Source: Trueperaceae bacterium (GTDB lineage Bacteria > Deinococcota > Deinococci > Deinococcales > Trueperaceae). Taken from it: a stretch of DNA of 64,000 nt. The stretch's first letter is position 1. Each line of letters begins with the position of its first letter. The position numbers were made by a program, and so were the translations under genes. The stretch covers positions 1 through 64,000 of the forward strand of contig PAMQ01000010.1 in NCBI GenBank assembly GCA_002707365.1, written 5' to 3'. The notes under the pieces were generated by a model, which saw only the letters and a program-made list of their open reading frames with translations, was not told the DNA's origin and did no database searches. Of the stretch, positions 9,124 through 32,980 are shown piece by piece.

Positions 9124-9243
9124 TTACTTTGGGAGGTGTTTTAAGCCAATATTTAAGGGAATTTTCGCTAAAAACAAATTTCCGTGCTAAACTCTATAAG
9201 CCATAAACTATTTAGCAACAAGCCATTTAAGGAGGCTGCTTTG

Positions 9244-10800
9244 ATGAAGCTCGTTATAAAAAGAGTGACCGGCTTGGGGTTAGTCGCCCTAGCTGTCCTG
9301 CTCCTGTTCGGTAACGCACAGGCGCAGAAGACTCTAACTATCGGTATGAATGAACTACCATCGTTGCTTGACCCGCCACGTGATTGGGCGATTGCAGCAA
9401 CCTGGATCCATATGAACCTGTTCGATTGCCTCGTTTGGCGTAATCGCGCAACAGCTGATTTCGAGCCCTGGCTCGCCACGTCTTGGAAGAACATCGATCC
9501 AACCACTTGGCGTATGCAGCTCCGGGAGGGCGTAACCTTCCACAACGGCGAGGAATTCAACGCCGATGCGGTTAAATGGACCTATCAGCGAATTACGAAT
9601 GCTTCAAGGGCCGAATTCATCACTTTCGGTCAATGGGCGTTCATTACTGACGTGGTGATTCATGGACCATATGAGGTCGATATCATTACTGACAAGCCCC
9701 AACCTGCCTTCCTCAGTAAAATGGCTGGCACCGGTTGCGGCATCCAAGCGCCTGGCGCAGGCCCAGCAATGACCCCTGTGGGTGATGGCGACTACCACCC
9801 AGTCGGCACTGGACCTTACAGTTTGGTCAGCTATGACCAAGATGATAATTTAGTCCTTGCAGCTAATTAGAGCTACTGGCATGGCAAGCCTGACATCGAC
9901 ACGATCATCTGGCGGTCCATTCCGGAGACTTCCACCCGGATTGCTAACCTCCTCACTGGCGACATCGATCTTTCGGTAGGTGTGCCTCCTCAGGATTGGG
10001 ATCGCATCAATGCCAACGACGGAACTTCGACGGAAGAGTTCCTGACCACGCGGGTAATGCTACTGTCGCTCCGGCAGGGTGGTTCGGAAGATCTGCCTGA
10101 CTGGGAAGGACCTACTTCGGATGTCCGCATCCGCCAAGCAATAAGCTATGCCATCGATCGCGAGACCCTGATCGATGTTGTCGGCGGACTTGGCATTCCA
10201 ACCTTGTCTCGTCTCACACCGCCAACCTTAGGCTGGGATCCCCTACACTACAACCAAGTAGGTGTTTATGATCCTCAAAGAGCTAAGGATTTACTTGCTG
10301 AAGCTGGCTACGATGGTGAGGAACTAACCTTCCACAGCAGCACTTCCTGGCTCATGCAGAAGGAAGTCAGCGAAGTTCTCGAAGCCATGTTAGAAGCCGT
10401 CGGTCTTAATATTGACCTTCAGGTTCTCGACGTGACTACCTTCCGTGAGCAGATTTACCGCCCCAACAAGAACGAAGAAATCTACATGGATGCCTTAGGA
10501 AACTCGTTCTTTGATCCATGGATCGCTGTTCGTTCGTTCGAAGAAGGCCGTCGATTCCGAACTGGCTGGGAAGGCTCAAGAGCCGACCAAGCTGAAGCTT
10601 TAATCCAAGCTGGTGCGGTTAACATGGACCCAGTCGAACGTGGTGCCCAAATGAGTGCAGTCTTCGATATCGTGCTACAAGAAGCGATTATGATCCCCCT
10701 TTACCAGATGAAGGATGCAATGGGTCGTACATCAGATCTTGAGTGGAGCATGCCACTTGACGGCTTCCTCTGGATGGGTGACGCTGTACTGAACCGCTAA
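9244..10800 (+). pseudogene. Peptide/nickel-type ABC transporter substrate-binding protein interrupted by an in-frame TAG
   Basis: From the ATG at 9244 (after AAGGAGG) the frame encodes a signal peptide (MKLVIKRVTG, hydrophobic core, AQAQ cleavage region) and the first lobe of an SBP_bac_5 protein through the GTGPYSLVSY motif. It then meets TAG at 9868-9870 (codon 209). The same frame continues without a break to 10800 with the expected second half: YWHGKPDIDT, the GDIDLSVG element, VRIRQAISYAIDRE and the C-terminal lobe. Only one codon separates the halves, at the position where this family has N-x-x-Y-W, so a single substitution (for example GAG to TAG) explains it. It may be a recent nonsense mutation, a sequencing error or readthrough. 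Both permease genes downstream are intact. Confidence 0.85.
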
Positions 10801-21339: not shown

Positions 21340-23415
21340 TTAATTTTTTCCACCACCCTCACCTGGGTACAAATGACAAGCTACATCATGCCCTTCACCA
21401 TGATTAGATTTTGTTGGAAAAGTAACGTCGCAAATCCCTGGTATTGCCTCTGGGCATCGTGCGTGGAATGGACAACCACTAGGCACTGTTAATGCGTTAG
21501 CAGGTTCGCCATCTATGACGGAACGCATTTTGTGGCGGTTTGCTGGATCCGGTTCCGGAACCGCGGCAAGTAGACCACGGGTGTATGGATGCATTGGCGA
21601 ATCTATGACCCTCGAAGCCGGCCCAATCTCAACTACGCGACCAAGGTACAACACCACAATCCGGTCAGCGAAGTATCGGGCGCTAGCGAGGTCGTGAGTA
21701 ATAGTCAGGAGGGTTAGGTCACTGTCTTCCTGTAGTTCACGGAGTAAATATAAAATCTCGGCACGACTACTAGCGTCGATCATCGAAACCGGTTCGTCAG
21801 CCACCAATAATTGTGGCTCTAATACCATGCCTCGGGCAATGCTCACTAGTTGTCTCTGACCACCAGAAAGCACGTGAGGGTATAGTTTTGCGAACTCTGA
21901 AGTAGGTTCGAGTTTTACTTTTTCAAGTGCAGTTTTGACGCGTCTTTGTCGCTCTTTTACGGATTTTACTCCTTGTACCACAAGTGGCTCTTCAACTAGA
22001 TTGTACACCTGTTGGTAAGGACTCAAGCTGGCATAGGGGTCTTGAAAGACTGCCTGTACTCTTTGGCGAAAATACCGTAAATCAGCTTCGGTCTTAACCG
22101 TGACGTCCTGATTATCGAACTTGATTCGTCCTTGCACTGGGGTTCCCAATCGTAAGAGCGCCCGTGCGAGTGTAGATTTTCCACTTCCACTCTCCCCTAC
22201 TACTGCAACACTTTCACCGCGGTAAAGATTAAGATCAACTAGTTCTAATGCTTTTACCGGAGCATTACCGAGGAAACCGCGTCTAACCCAATAGTAAAAA
22301 CTGACACCCTTCATCTCTACTAGTGGGTCCTCATTATGATGTACGTCAGCTACTGGTAGGGTTTCAGAACGAGAAGAATTAGGATGAACAGATGAAGATT
22401 TACCGGATTCTGATTCATTGCCGCTGTCCGACAAGTTAGCTTCTTGTTTCACTCCATCAGGTAACGGCTGGTATTGCCAGCAGCGGGCTGACGGGCCGGC
22501 TTTGATTTCAACTAGAGCAGGTTCATGAGTTTGGCAAGGCTCGAACGCTACGGAGCAACGGGGTTGAAAGCGACACCCTAGGAAGGGATAACTTGGGTCG
22601 GGCGGTGTACCGGAAAGGAAAGTTGGGCGTGTGTTACTTCGTAGTCGCGGAATGCTGTTCAACAGCGCCTGAGTATAAGGATCATTAGGGGCTGTAAGGA
22701 CTTTTTCAGCTGGACCAATTTCACGTACTTGTCCTGCATAGAGAACTGCCAGTCTATCGCACAGGTCACTAGCGAGGGCAAGATCGTGAGTAATGAAAAG
22801 CATCGACACGCCATATTCCGAACACAAATTCTTCAGAAGGTTCATGATTTGTGCCTGGATCGATACGTCAAGTGCACTAGTGGGCTCATCTAGAATTAGA
22901 AGATCGGGCTTTAACGCTAGGGCCATGGCAATCATGACACGCTGGCGCATACCCCCTGAGAGCTCGTGCGGGTACCGAAGTCTAATCTCTGGCCCAAGGC
23001 CGACCTGTTCTAGCAATTCAGATGCTCGGTTACGGCTCTCACGTCGACCCAAAGCATCAAGTCGCCAACACTCTGCCAATTGTTCCCCTACCCGCAACAC
23101 CGGGTTAAGAGCATGCATTGCGTTCTGAAGCACCATTGATATGCAACGCCAGCGTATGTCGGTACGGAATTGCTCATCGCTCATGCTCTCTAGGCTGAGG
23201 TCCCCAAGGCGCATTCGACCGGAGATAGTAGTACCTTTTGGTAGTAGACGCATTAGCGCCCTAGCGAGGCTACTTTTACCACTGCCCGATTCCCCGATTA
23301 TCCCTAAAGCCTCACCACCGAGGGCCAGGTTTAACGACACGTTATCGACCGCTTTTACCTCGTTTCCGCCACGCCGATAACTTACATTCAAATTATCAAT
23401 TAGAAGATGTTTCAT
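21340..23415 (-). CDS. Fused dipeptide/oligopeptide ABC transporter ATPase (DppD-DppF fusion)
   Basis: The 691-residue protein holds two complete ATPase units. The first (about 1-320) has Walker A GESGSGKSS, signature LSGGMRQR, Walker B LLILDEPTSALD and the DppD-type cysteine-rich tail (CRFQPRCS). After a Ser/Glu-rich linker (about 325-355) the second (about 360-690) has GESGSGKST, LSGGQRQL, LLVADEPVSMID and its own tail (CPFHARC). Normally these are separate DppD and DppF proteins; fusion fixes the heterodimer ratio. Its ATG overlaps the stop of the DppC-type permease by four bases. It powers the minus-strand importer. Confidence 0.92.
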   Translation of the reverse strand: MKHLLIDNLNVSYRRGGNEVKAVDNVSLNLALGGEALGIIGESGSGKSSLARALMRLLPKGTTISGRMRLGDLSLESMSDEQFRTDIRWRCISMVLQNAMHALNPVLRVGEQLAECWRLDALGRRESRNRASELLEQVGLGPEIRLRYPHELSGGMRQRVMIAMALALKPDLLILDEPTSALDVSIQAQIMNLLKNLCSEYGVSMLFITHDLALASDLCDRLAVLYAGQVREIGPAEKVLTAPNDPYTQALLNSIPRLRSNTRPTFLSGTPPDPSYPFLGCRFQPRCSVAFEPCQTHEPALVEIKAGPSARCWQYQPLPDGVKQEANLSDSGNESESGKSSSVHPNSSRSETLPVADVHHNEDPLVEMKGVSFYYWVRRGFLGNAPVKALELVDLNLYRGESVAVVGESGSGKSTLARALLRLGTPVQGRIKFDNQDVTVKTEADLRYFRQRVQAVFQDPYASLSPYQQVYNLVEEPLVVQGVKSVKERQRRVKTALEKVKLEPTSEFAKLYPHVLSGGQRQLVSIARGMVLEPQLLVADEPVSMIDASSRAEILYLLRELQEDSDLTLLTITHDLASARYFADRIVVLYLGRVVEIGPASRVIDSPMHPYTRGLLAAVPEPDPANRHKMRSVIDGEPANALTVPSGCPFHARCPEAIPGICDVTFPTKSNHGEGHDVACHLYPGEGGGKN

Positions 23416-24854
23416 TGTTGTTCCCGAAGACGCGGGTTAACGACCGTTTCCATCCCTAGTGCCAGTAGCATGAAGGTAACGGCTGTAAGTACAATCAGGA
23501 GTCCAGGCGGTACTATCCACCACCAATAACCTAAAAACACTGCACCCGTTCGGAATCCCTGCTCTAGTATCTGACCCCAGGTCGGTAAACTAGGATCTCC
23601 AAGCCCAAGAAAAGAAAGACCTGCTTCGGCAAGTATCGCTCCAGGAGCGAAGAAGATCAATTGCGCAAGCACGAAGGGCGCAGTATGGGGGAATACATGA
23701 TGACGCAATATGTGAGCTGTCGATGCTCCTAATGTACGTGCTGCCTCTACCTCAGGACTGTTGCGAAGGGGCAACACCATTGACCGCACTAAGATGGTTA
23801 AACCCGGCCAGCTAAATACCACTAAGATCGCTAGGATTAACCACAACTGTGATCCCAAAATAAACACTAGGAAGATCAGTAGTGGTAGAGCTGGTACGTT
23901 GTTCATAACGTCGGCAACTCGTTGGATTACTAGGTCGGTACGCCCGCCAACAAATCCACTCACTAATCCGAGGGTAGTACCTATCAGAGTGCTGAGGGTG
24001 GAAGCCAAAACACCGATTAGAAGAGCAATGGGCAAACCAAATAGGAGGCCCTCGGCAAGGTCACGACCCAATGTATCCGTCCCAAATAAACCAAATGCAG
24101 CACCACCAGCAACACCTCGCACGCTTGAGACCACATCACCCGAGTCAGCAAGTGTAAAACGTACTTCGAGAACATAGCGGCCGGTCAATGGATCGATCGT
24201 TCCGTCCGAATTTGGTGCACCGAACAGCCCTCTCAAGGGTCTTGATTTGATCTCATCACGGAATGAGGCTTCGCCTGCTGATTCATATACGGAATAGAGC
24301 GAGTCGACGATAATCGGTACTACATCCCTACCACTGGTAAGAAGTAATCGTTTAGGTGTCTCTGCGTAGCGAATGAAAGGTCCGCTCTCTCCTAACCTTG
24401 GCCCTGACACTACCTCGCGCGCTAACGGTATGCGCAAACCGTCGGGCCTTATCAGCGTTACCCAGTATTGGGGAGGCCTCGCAAAGTAGTTAATCTCTCC
24501 CAATGTAAGAGAAAGGAAGGTAGGTGCCAAATTTGAGTCGTGATTAAACGGTAGTTCGAAAACGCGAGATTCCCCTGGGCCTAGGGGCCCGACTACTGTT
24601 GGCTCACGAGTTTCTGTGACTTGGTGCACTGGTCCAGGTTCGCGTGAAAACCAGTTCGTCCACCTAGGGGGGGCAGCGGACGGATTATCGGACCACACAG
24701 CTGGGTTGCTCCAACGCGAGGGACCAAAGTCGAGTGGATAGGTGAACACCACATAAAGGGACGTAAGTGTCAGTCCCACCAGTAAACTCAAGCCCAAGCG
24801 CCCAGGAGCTGAGTCGAAAAGTTGTCTAAGAACCGAGCGTTTGCCCATGCTCAT
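23412..24854 (-). CDS. ABC transporter permease, DppC type with large extracytoplasmic insert
   Basis: From the ATG at 24854 (or 24848) the product is about 480 residues against about 300 for ordinary DppC. After the first helix (LGLSLLVGLTLTSLYVVF) there is an insert of about 200 residues, rich in Pro, Trp and Arg with beta-strand character, on the outer face. It ends at the standard FGTDTLGRDLAEGLLFG segment and the five remaining helices. The EAA loop is seen in VEAARTLGASTAHILRHHVFP. The 5' end overlaps the DppB-type gene by about 29 bases. The insert could help dock the unusual binding protein encoded upstream. Confidence 0.87.
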   Translation of the reverse strand: MSMGKRSVLRQLFDSAPGRLGLSLLVGLTLTSLYVVFTYPLDFGPSRWSNPAVWSDNPSAAPPRWTNWFSREPGPVHQVTETREPTVVGPLGPGESRVFELPFNHDSNLAPTFLSLTLGEINYFARPPQYWVTLIRPDGLRIPLAREVVSGPRLGESGPFIRYAETPKRLLLTSGRDVVPIIVDSLYSVYESAGEASFRDEIKSRPLRGLFGAPNSDGTIDPLTGRYVLEVRFTLADSGDVVSSVRGVAGGAAFGLFGTDTLGRDLAEGLLFGLPIALLIGVLASTLSTLIGTTLGLVSGFVGGRTDLVIQRVADVMNNVPALPLLIFLVFILGSQLWLILAILVVFSWPGLTILVRSMVLPLRNSPEVEAARTLGASTAHILRHHVFPHTAPFVLAQLIFFAPGAILAEAGLSFLGLGDPSLPTWGQILEQGFRTGAVFLGYWWWIVPPGLLIVLTAVTFMLLALGMETVVNPRLREQQ

Positions 24855-25905
24855 AACGCACACGAGGATCGAGAAGCACGTACAGCACCTCCAACACCAT
24901 GCGGGCTGAAACATAAAGTAATGTAAACATGAAGGTCAGCCCAATAATGAGCCCTTCATCTGGCGTGCCTACAATAGCATCGTAGTAGAGTCTCCCCATA
25001 CCTCGCCAATCAAATACTGTTTCCACGAGGATCGAGCCCCCTAACGAGCCAGCAAGCCCTAGAATCAGACCTGTAACTATTGGGGCCGCTGCCGGACGTA
25101 ACACGTGCCGGCGCTCCACCAAGTGCCCAGGCAAACCTTTAGCTCGTGCCAGCATAACGAAGTCCTCCTGGGCCACATCTAACGTGATGGTCCGAACCAC
25201 ATATATATATGGCCCTAGACCAACAAGTACGAGAGTTAACACTGGTAGGATAGCGTGAAAGGCTAAGTCGATAAAGCGTGCGAATCCACCCTCTGGCGGA
25301 GGGGTACTGTACATTCCTCCTGCTGGCAAAAGTCCAAGCTGAAACGATAATAGTAATATCAGCAAGATCCCTGTCCACCAAGCTGGTAGAGCGTAACTAA
25401 TTGATGCCATGTATGAAACGATACGATCGATAAGGCTGCCAACACGAGTGGAAAGCCAAACCCCTAGTGTCAAACCAATAACAGCTGTAATCATCATTGC
25501 TGTGGTGAGCAAAAGAATAGTCGGGGGAAGCCGCTCAAGGACAATATCAGCTATACGGTTGCTTCCGTCAGTAGCTCGCATGGTACGAGCTACACCCAAA
25601 TCAAGGGTAAATACTTGTAAAGCCATACTGGGCAAACGCTGAAACCATGCTCGGTCAAGGCCATAGGAAGAGTTAAGTTCAGTACGCCGTGCTTCAAGCG
25701 CTACTTCTAGGGCCTCTGGGTCTTTGATTGTCTCTGCTAGAGCCGGGCGCAGGGCACGTAACTCCTCCCCAATAACAGCACCGAGCATTCGCTCGCTAAA
25801 TCCAGTCGCACCAAGACTCACCACAAGAAGGATGAGAACTACGAAGAGAACCGCGACCAAGCTTACTGCTCGCACCACTAGTGGGCGCAACAGCGAAGGA
25901 GTCAC
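24826..25905 (-). CDS. ABC transporter permease, DppB type
   Basis: A 359-residue permease with an N-terminal helix, an expanded extracytoplasmic segment (about 35-110) that includes a short charged helix (PEALEVALEARRTEL), then the helices and the EAA loop (EDFVMLARAKGLPGHLVERRHVL) that contacts the ATPase. It starts with GTG at 25905, one base after the stop of the binding-protein gene, with GAGG upstream. Its 3' end overlaps the DppC-type gene. It is part of the 32797-to-21340 operon. Confidence 0.88.
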   Translation of the reverse strand: MTPSLLRPLVVRAVSLVAVLFVVLILLVVSLGATGFSERMLGAVIGEELRALRPALAETIKDPEALEVALEARRTELNSSYGLDRAWFQRLPSMALQVFTLDLGVARTMRATDGSNRIADIVLERLPPTILLLTTAMMITAVIGLTLGVWLSTRVGSLIDRIVSYMASISYALPAWWTGILLILLLSFQLGLLPAGGMYSTPPPEGGFARFIDLAFHAILPVLTLVLVGLGPYIYVVRTITLDVAQEDFVMLARAKGLPGHLVERRHVLRPAAAPIVTGLILGLAGSLGGSILVETVFDWRGMGRLYYDAIVGTPDEGLIIGLTFMFTLLYVSARMVLEVLYVLLDPRVRYEHGQTLGS

Positions 25906-25906
25906 G

Positions 25907-28294
25907 CTACGGAAGAACCTCTACATCTACGCGTCGTTCAGCAATAAGCGCAAGCTCGCTAGACGAAGCAGCCAAATGCAGATGATAGAGACCTGGGAAT
26001 AAATCCTTAGATACTTCGGTCGTCACCTCGACTTTGAACAACCCATTTTCGTCCTGCTGGGCAATACCACTATCAACTGTTTGGTTAGTAGCAGCATCTA
26101 GTAAAAGATAACGCAATTCGAGCTCACCGGGAGCCGTAACATTGATTTCCCATTCTCCTTCTTTGCCGGAGCGCAACGCACTTTCAACAGGAGCATCAAT
26201 AAGAATTTCTTTTGGCTGACCAAGGTATCGCTGTCCCGGCTGAAAGGGATAGGATTCATCTCGGAAAGCCCGTAGCTCAGCAAATTGTGCTGGTGGATCG
26301 TAACGAGCCAACCAAAAGGGACCATTACTAATCACTAGATGATCTGTCTCGTCAATCCAGGTTAGTGCAGCTCTATAACGCTCCTCAGCTTCATCGGCGG
26401 CCACAAGGGTACGGCCTCCGAAATCAAATACGCCCTCTGGCTGAAACTCTTCTCTTGAGAACCTCTTTAGGGTGCGCTCAACCAACTTAGCGTCGCGTTT
26501 CATTACAAGGCTGATCCAAGGCACATTGAAACGTGCTGCGGCTGTGTCGCTATAAGCAGCCCGGCGTTGCGAAAACACCAAATCATCCATTGCGGCAAGA
26601 ACTTCCCATGGGGTTGAGAAGGACGCTGGACTCGCGTACTCAGCAATAGAACTCTGGTCAAAGTGCCAAAAGTCGACGTATACCTCGAGCCGGTTGTCTT
26701 CTAGTAGGCGGTAGCCTCGGAGGGTCTCAAGATACGGTCGAGAGGTAATGGCTAACGCAGCTTCGGTGCGGGCCTTATCCGGGTCATAGGCTAGTTCATA
26801 AGCTTGCGCGATGCTGTATAGAGCGTCGGCAATGGTTATTGGCTGGCCGTGATGCCAGTTACTACCAATATACTTTGAGTAATCGAATATTACTTTGCTG
26901 CGCGCTTGAGCTGTTGGTTCCACAGGCACCCAGCGCTTTGCCGTCACGTCCCAAAGCATCGCATCGTCTGGAATCTCCAGAGTAGAATCCGGCCCGGCAG
27001 TTTGAACTTCGAAAGATGCACGAAAAGGGCCTGGTACGCCTGTAAATGGATGGTTCCAGAGGGGAGGATCCGTAAGGTTTCGCCAAATGTCAACGCCGTA
27101 AACATCACCAAATCCAGCTATCGGATTCCAGGTGGTGCGTTCAGTCCATACCCATAGGTGTCCTACGGTCAAGTCCTGGCGCCCTGGGACGTACGCTTCT
27201 CGAAGGGTCCAAGGCGACCGCGGTCCAGCGACTACATCACTTGTCACACCTTTTAACTCTGCAGTAGAGACAAAGTTGTTAGTAACTGTGGCTAACCACA
27301 CTCTCACTGACTCATCAAGTGCCAGAGAAGTCATCTCTGCGTATACGGCGTCGCGCTCTTCGCGACTTGAAAACTCGCCCCGGAAAAGCTGTTTGCCTAA
27401 TTCATCTAAACGGGGCATTTCGTATTGCCAGAATCCCATTTCCTGCCAACCTGGCATGTTTCCCAACCAGGGGGCAGTCATGGAATTTATGGTGCCAACA
27501 TCGTACCGCCGCGGTGCACCTCGACTCCAACCCTCTGTGTATAGATGCCACTCAAACGAAGCAGGGTCAGTGGAGTAAACGGTAAGTACAGCCGGAGCAA
27601 AGTTTTGATATGAGATAGCAACGTCGAACCCAGCCTGGTCAAGCTCGGCTCGAATTAAATCGCTAATCTCACGCCGTTCATCCTCTACGCGACCGATAAA
27701 ACGTAGGCGAATCGGCTGACCACCGTAGTGCCAACGATCGTCAACAAATTCAGCTCCTGCACCGCGCATTGCTTCTGCAATGCGCTGTCGGGCAAATTCC
27801 GGGTCATATCGAATGCCCGAACCTCGATCTATCTCGTACACCGTGAGGTAATCGTAGTCGAGTGGACTTACGTGCGACAACATCGGTGTTGCAAGACCCC
27901 TGTAGAGATCTTGAGCTATGAATTCTCGGTCTACAAGAAACTGCATCGCGCGCCGGACCTCAGGCAGAGAGAAGGGATTAAGTCTGCCATCTGGAGCAGG
28001 TGCTGGATTGAGAATAAGCGAAAGTGTTGTGGAAGGAGCTTCGTAAAGTTGAGTTGTTGGGTCGTCCTGTAAATCTAATGCGGCGTCTGTACGTAAACCA
28101 AAATAGTACAGATCCATGTTGCCACTAGTAAGCTCGAGCGGTGCGCGATCAACATGAAAAGATCGAAAAAACACTTTATCAGCTGCAGGACCAGGCTGCG
28201 AGTGGGGAGGCTCGTATTCCTCGGCAAGAACAGTGGCTGTTATTAGAACAAAGCATGTTGTGATTGCCCACACGACTTTAGTAGGACGATTCAT
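25907..28294 (-). CDS. Large ABC transporter substrate-binding protein with SBP_bac_5 halves in swapped order
   Basis: From the ATG at 28294 this is a 795-residue exported protein with a signal peptide (MNRPTKVVWAITTCFVLI, Ala cleavage region near 23-25). It is far longer than the usual 500-550. Residues about 40-365 read like the second half of SBP_bac_5 proteins (SGNMDLYY; NPFSLPEVRRAMQFLVDRE near 106-124; YDPEFARQRIAEAM). Residues about 375-690 read like the first half (LTVGHLWVWTERTTWNP; NWHHGQPITIADAL near 479-492; SNGPFWLARY near 656-665). A beta-rich tail (700-795) follows. It should capture peptides or oligomers for the permeases downstream. Confidence 0.85.
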   Translation of the reverse strand: MNRPTKVVWAITTCFVLITATVLAEEYEPPHSQPGPAADKVFFRSFHVDRAPLELTSGNMDLYYFGLRTDAALDLQDDPTTQLYEAPSTTLSLILNPAPAPDGRLNPFSLPEVRRAMQFLVDREFIAQDLYRGLATPMLSHVSPLDYDYLTVYEIDRGSGIRYDPEFARQRIAEAMRGAGAEFVDDRWHYGGQPIRLRFIGRVEDERREISDLIRAELDQAGFDVAISYQNFAPAVLTVYSTDPASFEWHLYTEGWSRGAPRRYDVGTINSMTAPWLGNMPGWQEMGFWQYEMPRLDELGKQLFRGEFSSREERDAVYAEMTSLALDESVRVWLATVTNNFVSTAELKGVTSDVVAGPRSPWTLREAYVPGRQDLTVGHLWVWTERTTWNPIAGFGDVYGVDIWRNLTDPPLWNHPFTGVPGPFRASFEVQTAGPDSTLEIPDDAMLWDVTAKRWVPVEPTAQARSKVIFDYSKYIGSNWHHGQPITIADALYSIAQAYELAYDPDKARTEAALAITSRPYLETLRGYRLLEDNRLEVYVDFWHFDQSSIAEYASPASFSTPWEVLAAMDDLVFSQRRAAYSDTAAARFNVPWISLVMKRDAKLVERTLKRFSREEFQPEGVFDFGGRTLVAADEAEERYRAALTWIDETDHLVISNGPFWLARYDPPAQFAELRAFRDESYPFQPGQRYLGQPKEILIDAPVESALRSGKEGEWEINVTAPGELELRYLLLDAATNQTVDSGIAQQDENGLFKVEVTTEVSKDLFPGLYHLHLAASSSELALIAERRVDVEVLP

Positions 28295-28358: not shown

Positions 28359-30767
28359 TCAGTCTCGCTCCTGAGTCTGTTTCTTAGTTAACAATGTTCT
28401 CCGCAAACTCCATACAGATAGTGAACTCCAAGCAGCTAGGACTAACAGGATCACTAAAAATGCGAGTGCCCACGGTATTAGTCTCCCTATACTGGTGAAA
28501 CCTGAGCCGGGGAAACCTGAGGCGGCAGCGGGTATATCTAAACCTGCAGACGGCGGACCACTAATACCAGTACCACTTTGAGAGAGTGGCCCATCCAAAT
28601 CTTCGTCCGTGGAAGGCTGATCTTTTATTTCATCAACTTGTTGTTCGAGACGCAGCATCAAATCTTCTATTGATCCAAAACCGAATTCAGTAAAGAATGA
28701 TGTGCTGGCAACATTACCGCTAGCGTCAACTGCTCGCAATGTTTGAGCACCTTCCCCTGTTACCGGCATGAACAATCGACTAGAGAAACGTCCTTCATCG
28801 TTGGTGCGGGCTAGGGCTATGGTTGAGTCTCCAAGTAATACAAAAATGTCCATTTTAGGTTGGAAGCCAAATCCTTGGAGAGTAACTTCCTGGCCCCCTG
28901 GTCCGGCTGCAGGCGAAAGAAATACTTCGGGCGATGGTATAGCACTTAGGCGCGAAAAGCCGATCTTTTGGTTGACACCACCAAATTCACCGAGGCGGGA
29001 ATCAGCCCAAGCCATATAGACTTCGTCCTCAGTGGCACTGATCGAGAAGTAGTCACCAATAAATAGGCCATTAGGGAATGCTCGGTTTGGGTTGGACGCG
29101 AAGTCGGTAACTCGCGTATCTCCCACACTGTATCCAAGGCGTTCGTCTTCGAAGCCCCAATTTTCTCCGCCGTCCTCTGACCTTGTGTAGTAGATATGGT
29201 AACTAGTCTGAACTGGGTCATCCCGCATGTCACCCCACATCGCATGAACCACTCCATCAGGACCTACATCTACTGATGGGAAGAATTGAAGTGCTGATTC
29301 AGTATCGTCATTCAGCCGACGTGGACGCGTCCAACTTTTTCCTTGATCCTTTGAAGTGACAACAAAAACATCACCATCATCATCTAGTCGATCTGAAGGC
29401 CGAGCCACGTAAACAACGTACAACTCATTTTCAGGCCCAATAGCTAACTGTGGGAACGAGCTTGCCCAGTATCGGAAGTAAGCATTGCGAGGCCTGAATG
29501 GGATTTCGTTGAACGAGGTGGCTACCGACGGCGCTTCAAAATTAATGCCCTTATCTTTGGAGCAAGCTGTCCAGATTTCGGCGGCACCTTTCATGCTGCC
29601 GTCATCTGTACTGTCAACCCAAGCGACACAGAGAGTACCATCGCGACCAACGACTGGTTGTGGGCCCTGAACCACGCGATCGGAGCCAAATATCCCAGGA
29701 GCACCCCCACTATCTATCTCTCCATAACCTTTCCTAACGGTTGGACTAATAGCAATTGGTTCTGTCCAGGTGAGACCATCGTCTTCAGATGAAACCATTC
29801 TGATAGTTGAGCGTGTTTCCCGTGGGATAAGAGCAGGCACCTCGCCAACCCAAAACACCTCATGTCTGGTCTCAAAATCCGTGTATACAAGGTACAAAAC
29901 ATCGCGTGTCTCATCCTCAGGATTTGGTCCACTAGCCATCCAGGGTTTGTCGAGAAAACCGACATCAATATTGCCTCGAAGACGACCAAACTGGTCGGGG
30001 GCAAGATCGTCAGTACTTACTCGTGAACGCGCTGCTGAAATCGGCTGGGGCCAACTAAAACCATCGTCAGTTGAGCTAGATACAGCAATGCTGGACACCA
30101 TTGAGTAGATTGCTACAGGTCCTACTGCGAACTCTTCAACTCCCATCGAAATCATAGCCATGTAAACATTGCCATCGTTATCGAAGGTCAGTACTGGATC
30201 GCCGCCCGAGACCCGATCATCTTGAAGATAGGGCACCTGATTAGGACCCTCCCAAGTTTCTCCACCGTCAAAGCTAACGTAAGAACTATTTGAAGGAAAA
30301 TTGTAATCAATGATCCCGAGAACTAGGTGCTCGGGATCATTCGGGTTCGCTTCTAGGTGAGGTTCGGTTTGAATTGGCATCTGACTGAAATCTCTGGTGA
30401 TCAGGAGATCTCTACTGAACGCTGGACCAGGTTGACGAAACGGTACAAGTGCTGCAGCACCGGGTGCCTGTGTAAGCGATCCTGGTTGCGACATTCCGTT
30501 CTGAAGTCCCGTCCAATTCATGCGGGTGAGAGTATTGGTACCAGGCCTCCGGGATAAACCAGGATCTATACCCTCAACTAGAAGCCATGCTCTCCCTGAG
30601 AGCATGTTCTTTATAGGTGCGAGAAGGTTAATAGCTTGGCCCGAATCTGGTCGTTTGACGGGTGCAGTTGGGATCTCAATGTTACTTTTAGCCGACGAAA
30701 CTCCCAACACCAAACAAATTGTCAGTACTAGACATGCTAGAGCCATTGTTGTGTATCTGGTCGTCAT
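28359..30767 (-). CDS. Membrane-anchored BNR/Asp-box beta-propeller (sialidase-like fold) protein
   Basis: Using the ATG at 30767, the product is 802 residues with a signal peptide (MTTRYTTMALACLVLTICLV). Its core carries at least six Asp-box (S/T-x-D-x-G-x-x-W) motifs, such as SFDGGETW, SEDDGLTW, SKDQGKSW and SEDGGENW, indicating a sialidase-type six-bladed propeller. It is followed by an IPT/TIG-like beta domain (PAAGPGGQEVTLQGFGF), a short acidic coiled coil, a Gly/Pro/Ser-rich spacer and a C-terminal helix (WALAFLVILLVLAAW) with a basic tail that anchors it. I cannot assign sialidase activity. It ends 14 bases before the leader ORF of the binding-protein gene, so it is in the importer operon. 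An upstream GTG at 30875 would add 36 residues. Confidence 0.8.
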   Translation of the reverse strand: MTTRYTTMALACLVLTICLVLGVSSAKSNIEIPTAPVKRPDSGQAINLLAPIKNMLSGRAWLLVEGIDPGLSRRPGTNTLTRMNWTGLQNGMSQPGSLTQAPGAAALVPFRQPGPAFSRDLLITRDFSQMPIQTEPHLEANPNDPEHLVLGIIDYNFPSNSSYVSFDGGETWEGPNQVPYLQDDRVSGGDPVLTFDNDGNVYMAMISMGVEEFAVGPVAIYSMVSSIAVSSSTDDGFSWPQPISAARSRVSTDDLAPDQFGRLRGNIDVGFLDKPWMASGPNPEDETRDVLYLVYTDFETRHEVFWVGEVPALIPRETRSTIRMVSSEDDGLTWTEPIAISPTVRKGYGEIDSGGAPGIFGSDRVVQGPQPVVGRDGTLCVAWVDSTDDGSMKGAAEIWTACSKDKGINFEAPSVATSFNEIPFRPRNAYFRYWASSFPQLAIGPENELYVVYVARPSDRLDDDGDVFVVTSKDQGKSWTRPRRLNDDTESALQFFPSVDVGPDGVVHAMWGDMRDDPVQTSYHIYYTRSEDGGENWGFEDERLGYSVGDTRVTDFASNPNRAFPNGLFIGDYFSISATEDEVYMAWADSRLGEFGGVNQKIGFSRLSAIPSPEVFLSPAAGPGGQEVTLQGFGFQPKMDIFVLLGDSTIALARTNDEGRFSSRLFMPVTGEGAQTLRAVDASGNVASTSFFTEFGFGSIEDLMLRLEQQVDEIKDQPSTDEDLDGPLSQSGTGISGPPSAGLDIPAAASGFPGSGFTSIGRLIPWALAFLVILLVLAAWSSLSVWSLRRTLLTKKQTQERD

Positions 30768-30937
30768 TTTGGCCTGAACTATGTCATTATTTTTAACCCA
30801 GTCGTGCTTACCTCTCGTTTGAAACAACACAGGTTCCTTCACAATTGAACTACTATCTCCCGCCACCATTTTCACTCGTCATCACCACTTTCATAAAATT
30901 TTCTAACAATTAAATTTCCGTTACCACTTTTTATGGT

Positions 30938-32797
30938 TCATTCAACCAACACCAACAGGGCTTCTATTCTGTTACTCACACTAAGGAGTACAGCGTCACG
31001 GTATTTACCTAGAGCTGTGGGAAAACCGTGAGCACCAGTCTCTGCAAGCGCCCGAGAGCTTTCCTCTTGACTGGAATAATCGGCGTGCCTCCAATCAAGA
31101 AATACTTGGCTGGTTTCTTGTACTCGCCTAGCTAGTGTCCCTAATCGTACGGGATCAGCTTTTAGTCCTAGGGTTCGAATTCTCTCCAGATAAAATTCAG
31201 CTTCCGCGCGGGATTCTGGTATATCTTTACGCATTTCTATGAGAAGAAGGCGGCTAGCTTCCATCTGTTCGGCCTGGTTTTGTAATAACTCAACCAGTTC
31301 CTGGTATCTATCTTTATCACGCCGTGCATCGTAAAGTTCTCCCAGTAGTTTAGTGTTTTGTTGCTCAAGCTGCTCAATCCGCAGTTCCGTCTCAGAAAGT
31401 GTTTGTTCGCTAGCATCCTCGACTAAGACCTCTTCCGCCATCTGGGAGCGAATAGCTGGAATCGCAATCGTCCAGAGTAAATGTCCTATCCCGCCACTAG
31501 CAGATGGTAAAGATCTATTAAAAGCCTGTGTATCGCCTCCTGAGCTACGTTTGGCTAATAACTCGAAGGCCTTGATTAGGTATGGGTCATTTTGTTCACT
31601 GTACTGAGCCCAGTCCACTTCAACTAATACATCTGGCTCAACTCCAGCTCGTTCAAGTACGCTACCATCAGTAAGACGTAAACCAACCACTGTCAGCTGC
31701 AAAAGCGAGCCGCCAACAAAGTCTAGAGGCCGCACACCGTGTGTAACCCCCAAGGTCGGTTGGCCCACCACTTGCGCCCTTCCTTGAGATTGGAGTAGTA
31801 CAGCAAGTTGCTCGGCCTCGGCAACTGTGGTGTCGTCTACAAGCACCACAATAGGTACCTCGTCAAAACCACGCTTGAGGGGAGCCGGCGGCAATTCGAT
31901 CACACTATCACCAGCCCGGGTATACAAAGAACCTACCTCTCCCTCTAAGAAGTACGAAAGGAGCGGGAAAAGCACACCTGGAGCCCCTGTGCGAGTACCA
32001 CGCACATCAAGAATCAAACCTTCGATACCGGGTGGCGTTGCAAAGAACGCCATAGCCTGCTCGATAGCACGAAGAGTCTCGGCACCTGACAAGCTCACCA
32101 GCCGAAGGTATCCATAAGTGCTGTCTGGTCCTACTTTGCGCACTTCAGGCAATATAAGTGCGGTTACAGTACCCCGCTCGATTGGTATCTCACGTGGATC
32201 CTCATCAGGAGATGCCACCAGTAATCTTACGGTAGTTTCCGCTGGCCCACGAATGATCTCCACACGAGCGCAGGTGTCATCGTCAACAGCCAATATCCTG
32301 TCACGAGGACGAAGTCCCGCTTCCTCCGCTGGACTATCTGGAAATACAGCCACCACCCGCAACGCATCATCAGGACGTTTAACCCAGGATCGGTCAAGTA
32401 ATGCACCAATACCACCATAGGAAGCTTCTCGAGCAGCAGCAGCCTCTAACACAAGAGGATTCATAAAAGTGGTTAGAGGATCATCAAGAGTCCCAACCAT
32501 CCGGTCAAGAATGTCGTAATAAGCCCAAGCGTTCTCAGTCTCCAATACGAAAGGAGCAAAATCTTTTGTTACAGCATCCCAGTCAACACCATTAAAATCC
32601 TCAAAAAGGTAAAAATCCCGTACCGCACTTGAAACCGCGTTAAACAGACCAATGCGAACGTCTTCAGGCATCGCTATAGGTGTTTCAGGCCGCGGCATTT
32701 CGGGTGGATCGGGCTCAGCACACAAGTCTTGCGCCAAAACCACTCCAACGCATAGCAAAAACATGATTGCCATGAAACGAAAAGCTGAACGGCTCAT
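30938..32797 (-). CDS. S41-family (C-terminal processing protease-like) protein with catalytic Ser and Lys lost
   Basis: From the ATG at 32797 (signal peptide MSRSAFRFMAIMFLLCV) the product is 619 residues: an N-terminal helical region, a PDZ domain (about 125-195, GLRPRDRILAVDDD), an S41 core (about 220-360), and a C-terminal coiled coil (about 440-540). Aligned without gaps to the Prc/CtpA segment that holds the Ser-Lys dyad 25 residues apart, the Ser position is A326 (TTVAEAEQ) and the Lys position is V351 (PTLGVTHG), also 25 apart. The fold is kept while the dyad is gone, so it is probably a binding or scaffold protein. It lies upstream of the BNR protein and importer on the same strand. 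Confidence 0.8.
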   Translation of the reverse strand: MSRSAFRFMAIMFLLCVGVVLAQDLCAEPDPPEMPRPETPIAMPEDVRIGLFNAVSSAVRDFYLFEDFNGVDWDAVTKDFAPFVLETENAWAYYDILDRMVGTLDDPLTTFMNPLVLEAAAAREASYGGIGALLDRSWVKRPDDALRVVAVFPDSPAEEAGLRPRDRILAVDDDTCARVEIIRGPAETTVRLLVASPDEDPREIPIERGTVTALILPEVRKVGPDSTYGYLRLVSLSGAETLRAIEQAMAFFATPPGIEGLILDVRGTRTGAPGVLFPLLSYFLEGEVGSLYTRAGDSVIELPPAPLKRGFDEVPIVVLVDDTTVAEAEQLAVLLQSQGRAQVVGQPTLGVTHGVRPLDFVGGSLLQLTVVGLRLTDGSVLERAGVEPDVLVEVDWAQYSEQNDPYLIKAFELLAKRSSGGDTQAFNRSLPSASGGIGHLLWTIAIPAIRSQMAEEVLVEDASEQTLSETELRIEQLEQQNTKLLGELYDARRDKDRYQELVELLQNQAEQMEASRLLLIEMRKDIPESRAEAEFYLERIRTLGLKADPVRLGTLARRVQETSQVFLDWRHADYSSQEESSRALAETGAHGFPTALGKYRDAVLLSVSNRIEALLVLVE

Positions 32798-32980
32798 CCC
32801 TAAGAAATGATGAAAGGGAAGAGTGTTTATCAACACAATCGCGACCCCCTGCCGCGTCTCGTACCCTCAAACTCCTAAAAGTCTACCAACCATCCACGAA
32901 TTAGAAAGTAAGCCTGAATGAGTTGTATTCACCCCGTAACACAACAACGATTTAAACAAAATCTGATAAAAACATTCATC

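Follow-up and report, generated by a model that had tools for sequence, protein, structure and literature searches.

The described protein closest in both sequence and fold to the one analysed here is OppA of Thermococcus kodakarensis (PDB 7FI3), with which it has in common a long first half and the YTEGW motif. If the second (C-terminal) half of an ordinary DppA/OppA is called A and the first (N-terminal) half B, 7FI3 is built in the order B-A, whereas our protein of 795 amino acids is built as A-B and does not meet the canonical order, although similarity extends over both halves (147.5 bits after their exchange in silico). The structure 7FI3 was solved with a pentapeptide, while a peptide ligand of the permuted protein is only inferred. 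Likeness to the cluster C proteins of the SBP_bac_5 family (DppA, OppA, NikA) consists in a Pfam match over the cut-off and in Dpp-type permeases and ATPases encoded downstream; the differences are reversed halves, a length of about 800 amino acids and an extra C-terminal beta domain. A natural circular permutant is known: TpMglB-2 (Tp0684) of Treponema pallidum, conserved in its subfamily, for which the name “Type Ic / cluster Bc” was proposed and whose permutation the authors suggest to be linked to tethering (PMC4990184). It has, however, a cluster B sugar-binding fold and comes from an unrelated sequence family, so that only the kind of rearrangement is in common. Thus, natural permutation of binding proteins is established for cluster B, while in cluster C it is apparently undescribed, as far as the literature searched can tell: no account was found, but most subscription papers were outside the search and a prior description is not excluded. 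For the membrane part, E. coli DppBCDF and OppBCDF (8Z1W, 8Z1X, 8Z21) serve for comparison; their OppC/DppC are matched by the core of the DppC found here, which carries on its outer side a further domain of some 230 amino acids.

The window analysed is a stretch of 64,000 nucleotides from a Trueperaceae bacterium (contig PAMQ01000010.1). A sequence-only reading of it had noticed that motifs of the second half of dipeptide-type binding proteins precede those of the first half, and inferred a permuted or domain-swapped receptor. One correction concerns the strand: the gene lies on the minus strand (28294..25907, protein P0001) with the ATG at 28294 and the stop at 25907-25909, while the plus strand across 25907-28294 contains many stops. 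All motifs were found in the claimed order in the 795-residue frame: SGNMDLYY at residues 57-64, NPFSLPEVRRAMQFLVDRE at 106-124, YDPEFARQRIAEAM at 163-176, LTVGHLWVWTERTTWNP at 375-391, NWHHGQPITIADAL at 479-492 and SNGPFWLARY at 656-665. The gene and its parts are as follows:

25907..28294, minus strand: circularly permuted family-5 solute-binding protein, 795 aa (open frame, reversed Pfam and PDB matches, conserved homologues)
28223..28294, minus strand: hydrophobic N-terminal segment, probable signal peptide, residues 1-24 (sequence reading; low-confidence helix 4-22 in the model)
27179..28189, minus strand: half A, residues 36-372, second (C-terminal) half of ordinary DppA/OppA (PF00496 profile 146-351; 7FI3 332-596; half-order table)
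26225..27172, minus strand: half B, residues 375-690, first (N-terminal) half of ordinary proteins in its long archaeal OppA form (7FI3 22-310; weak Pfam match to profile 27-55; half-order table)
25925..26206, minus strand: C-terminal beta-rich domain, residues 697-790 (strands in the model; conserved domC profile)

PF00496, the only family that Pfam returned at E up to 10, scored 78.2 bits against a curated cut-off of 32.4 (E 8e-22), thus meeting the membership score, and placed residues 36-261 on profile positions 146-351, that is, it reported mainly half A. The match to 7FI3 consisted of two stretches in reversed order: residues 388-684 fell on chain positions 22-310 (i-Evalue 8.5e-15) and residues 47-284 on positions 332-596 (i-Evalue 1.2e-23). 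Residues 373-695 were then joined in silico ahead of residues 27-372 and the searches were repeated. The swapped construct gave one collinear alignment with 7FI3 (16-581 on 22-596, 147.5 bits, 575 chain residues), and Pfam coverage widened from profile 146-351 to 39-351. The collinearity from N- to C-terminus expected of SBP_bac_5 is therefore not met by the native protein and becomes continuous only once the halves are exchanged. Each half is present in one copy, and comparison of half A with half B revealed no significant similarity (best E 0.096). Taken together, the reversed match, the swap test and the single-copy halves mean circular permutation rather than a collinear or tandem arrangement, and the protein is a descendant and topological variant of the SBP_bac_5 family. 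The permuted receptor inferred earlier is in this way supported; SBP_bac_5 collinearity and a pair of complete domains in tandem, either of which had been named in advance as refuting it, were checked for and neither was found.

In the half-order table every clear family member showed the order A-B, and 7FI3 the order B-A. All 17 aligned homologues keep the permuted order, with identity falling to 30% and about 85 invariant columns distributed across both halves; E254 in YTEGW is an invariant acidic residue of this alignment. Since no homologue of the set departs from this order, assembly error is ruled out. As a control, the same genome was found to contain 12 PF00496 loci, 11 of which are matched continuously from near the profile start, the permuted gene alone being partial. 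When a canonical-order model was run over 300 Thermoproteota genomes, the strong hits listed were split into two reversed pieces (in G084, for instance, 312-662 and then 1-349), while the permuted-order model covered the same hits in a single piece; match counts picked out four genomes (G123, G202, G330 and G335) with canonical-order relatives.

The AlphaFold model of the 795-residue protein (pTM 0.79) was built on 17 sequences and is weak at residues 257-289 and 392-398. Its best PDB match in Foldseek was again 7FI3, of which only a part was alignable in sequence order. Against family members 300-400 columns were aligned, a coverage limited because Foldseek aligns in sequence order.

Directly downstream of the binding protein the operon continues with dppB, dppC and a fused dppDF, so that the receptor is, as expected of an SBP_bac_5 protein, encoded together with Dpp/Opp-type permeases and ATPases:

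24826..25905, minus strand: DppB-type permease, 359 aa (NCBIfam and Pfam)
23412..24914, minus strand: DppC-type permease, 500-aa frame (NCBIfam and Pfam; AlphaFold pLDDT 90.8, pTM 0.83)
24060..24740, minus strand: insert of DppC, about 230 aa, residues ~59-285, between TM1 and the transport core, predicted extracytoplasmic (loop lengths, PPxWxNxF motif, well-folded beta-rich domain in the model)
21340..23415, minus strand: ATPases DppD and DppF as a fusion, a single frame of 691 aa (NCBIfam at residues ~5-314 and 360-682)

NCBIfam offered no equivalog for any of these binding or transport proteins. The true start of DppC is likely an internal ATG, because residues 1-23 are of low confidence. 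In Foldseek only the core of this DppC matched E. coli OppC/DppC (about 220 columns), and the insert is folded well by AlphaFold. DppC proteins encoded next to permuted proteins of both families (the second is described below) have 446-543 amino acids (24 cases) against 267-397 next to ordinary ones (17 cases), without overlap; the rank test applied ignores relatedness, and one frame with an uncertain start (L298) was omitted. The stretch from TM1 to the core is about 215-275 residues in permuted-linked permeases against about 50 in ordinary ones and about 115 in one ordinary class, and the inserts have the PPxWxNxF motif in common. That class, a separate one with ordinary order (L267-L269 and L272; binding proteins of 638-701 aa), is intermediate, with DppC of 375-392 aa and the loop of about 115 aa. 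Specificity of the insert for permutation was considered and rejected: canonical-order relatives (L223, L225, L226) also have a long DppC of 434-503 aa, and the insert is therefore a marker of lineage, not of the permutation itself.

Genes dppB and dppC also adjoin the permuted relatives in Trueperaceae, Chloroflexota and most other archaea, while in Nitrosopumilales and Caldarchaeum the permuted gene is unlinked from them. The ammonia-oxidiser genomes whose dpp genes were read each encode a DppB of about 350-370 aa together with a DppC roughly 455 aa long. In a permease tree built from DppB and the DppC core, with the insert left out, the permeases linked to the first family all formed one clade with the unlinked pairs of the ammonia-oxidiser genomes and Caldarchaeum (99), and the permeases of both permuted families stood together against ordinary ones (98.5).

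Several neighbouring genes deserve mention. Directly upstream of the binding protein lies a gene for an 838-aa BNR/sialidase-like repeat protein whose C-terminal part includes a hydrophobic segment (28359-30875, minus strand); it is kept upstream in Truepera, in a Chloroflexota bin and in Caldarchaeum, where no dpp genes follow. Next in the row is an S41 peptidase with tricorn-C1-like and PDZ domains (30938-32836, minus strand), present also by the relative in Truepera, and a possible source of peptides. Elsewhere in the window an ordinary-order SBP_bac_5 gene (9184-10800, plus strand) is broken by an in-frame TAG into frames 9184-9870 and 9982-10800 and followed by intact dppB and dppC; it may be a pseudogene or reflect a sequencing error.

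A second permuted archaeal family, more DppA-like than the first, was also found. In its Desulfurococcales member of 762 aa (L110) Pfam positions 146-363 come first and 16-156 later in one frame, and a relative of this protein is matched in NCBIfam by NikA 25-193 at residues 380-570 and by Opp4A 237-542 from residue 45. Members, collinear with one another, were found in 19 of 250 genomes. As a control, profiles of this family matched ordinary proteins as B-A in 48 frames (not all of them distinct proteins) and permuted ones as A-B. The break lies in the same loop as in the first family: half B ends with “GTGPF...GEY..L..N..Y” and half A opens with “GPR.D......A...A...GE.D”. A C-terminal hydrophobic anchor is present in all 19 members analysed; in the first family the anchor survey found one after the C-terminal beta domain in archaeal members and none in the Trueperaceae protein. 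In one permuted protein from Desulfurococcales (L008) a long coiled-coil-like stalk separates beta domain and anchor (residues ~840-980). Both families were encountered within 10 kb on one contig (G111:C14, L277), each with its own long-DppC permease pair.

In the half-A tree the first family, including its canonical-order members, formed one clade (100). A single clade of both permuted families that leaves out the canonical-order relatives was rejected (AU p 5.7e-5), while a clade uniting both families and those relatives against ordinary proteins was not (p 0.70); the tree therefore requires the order to have changed at least twice, whether by two permutations in one and the same loop or by a single permutation and its reversion. 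Independent permutations are not claimed: the permuted members of the first family as one clade were not rejected either (p 0.586), and long branches make finer claims on origin unsafe. A lipobox-like motif, considered as a sign that an N-terminal lipoprotein anchor was the driver, occurred in 12 of 85 permuted representatives and in none of four canonical ones, which is uninformative.

Trueperaceae, Chloroflexota and Thermoproteota all have members that keep the permuted order, so that the guess of long related receptors in archaea and Chloroflexota held. Close relatives (62-78% identity) come from Trueperaceae and one Chloroflexota bin, the archaeal ones being more distant. Among 61 genomes near the source genome there were two close orthologues and a few permuted relatives of 30% identity. 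Of the 300 Thermoproteota genomes sampled, 191 contained a match to the permuted model at 1e-10, a small number of these matches being weak, partial, of canonical order or from the second family; in Chloroflexota the figure was 28 of 301 at 1e-30. In five genomes of the Nitrosopumilales, or ammonia-oxidiser, type (G067-G071) the permuted protein is the only SBP_bac_5 match; one of them is recorded as Gammaproteobacteria, yet clusters with Nitrosopumilales. In one Chloroflexota genome (G065, L111 2332-7232) two permuted paralogues stand in tandem upstream of one dppBC set.

Pfam by itself shows mainly half A and is potentially misleading, so that one might suspect the permutation to be a misreading of a normal collinear protein, of tandem copies or of a chimeric assembly. 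All three were rejected on the reversed 7FI3 coordinates obtained in an independent search, the swap test and the single copy of each half, and the same order recurs in unrelated contigs, including large single ones; this explanation is practically eliminated. A domain-swapped dimer, in which two chains exchange halves and each cleft combines half A of one chain with half B of its partner, was the other option of the sequence-only reading and is excluded by no computed result. It nevertheless remains a remote possibility: the A-B linker is about 3 residues in the profile (372/375), and in the AlphaFold model one chain packs on its own (pTM 0.79). In ordinary relatives both termini lie in the same lobe, and given this, joining them needs no swap.

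It may also be proposed that, at least in ammonia oxidisers, the protein is a secreted or surface protein using the binding-protein fold outside any ABC importer, for instance a sensor or a structural component. The absence of linkage to dppBC in Nitrosopumilales and Caldarchaeum and the presence of a C-terminal beta domain and anchor speak for it. Against it stand the adjacent dppB and dppC at the locus, in Trueperaceae, in Chloroflexota and in most other archaea, as well as the grouping of the ammonia-oxidiser DppBC pair with permuted-linked permeases in genomes lacking any other SBP_bac_5 protein, so that we consider it very improbable.

The reversed order, its conservation, the single copy of each half and the matching permease phylogeny are shown. 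Most probably, and with high confidence, the protein is the circularly permuted extracytoplasmic solute-binding protein of the downstream DppBC(DF) ABC importer with an archaeal OppA-like fold; its ligand and transport are inferred, neither having been shown. By analogy with 7FI3 and from the invariant E254 in YTEGW, oligopeptides would be the most likely ligand, there being no binding data. In the permuted-receptor reading, the old N- and C-termini of a family-5 fold of the archaeal OppA type have been naturally joined, and new ends have opened in a loop of the first half that lies behind two strands, GxGPF and “N..Y”, and ahead of “(G)P..D.I......(A)L..G..D”. The two-lobed clamp would be retained, close on the ligand and hand it to DppBC. 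With less confidence one can assume that the large outer domain of DppC helps to dock the receptor, and that through the permutation the C-terminal beta domain (and in archaea the membrane anchor as well) leaves from the loop before half A instead of the usual C-terminus, so that the receptor may be tethered at a different point; this role in tethering or docking is likewise inferred. The suggested reshaping of ligand access found no supporting evidence, the data showing instead that the termini are relocated and that the outer domain of the partner permease is enlarged.

A bolder reading combines these elements: permutation at one loop would be recurrent in cluster C (at least two origins, or one and a reversion), would work together with the enlarged DppC outer domain that docks the receptor, and would give much of Thermoproteota its main receptor for peptide-type import, and ammonia-oxidising archaea their only one. 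As a whole we regard this as falling a little short of an even chance.

Few nutrient receptors are as common as the binding proteins of family 5, and their annotation relies on collinear profiles. A widespread permuted branch means that Pfam only half-recognises many receptors of archaea, and that models and alignments assuming one order are wrong for this branch. Canonical and permuted relatives with traceable permeases offer a natural experiment on why chain ends move. Di- and oligopeptide transporters are listed in genome papers on ammonia-oxidising archaea (e.g. PMC5398378), and the permuted protein is the likely receptor for peptide-type uptake in these organisms, where its gene is unlinked from the permease.
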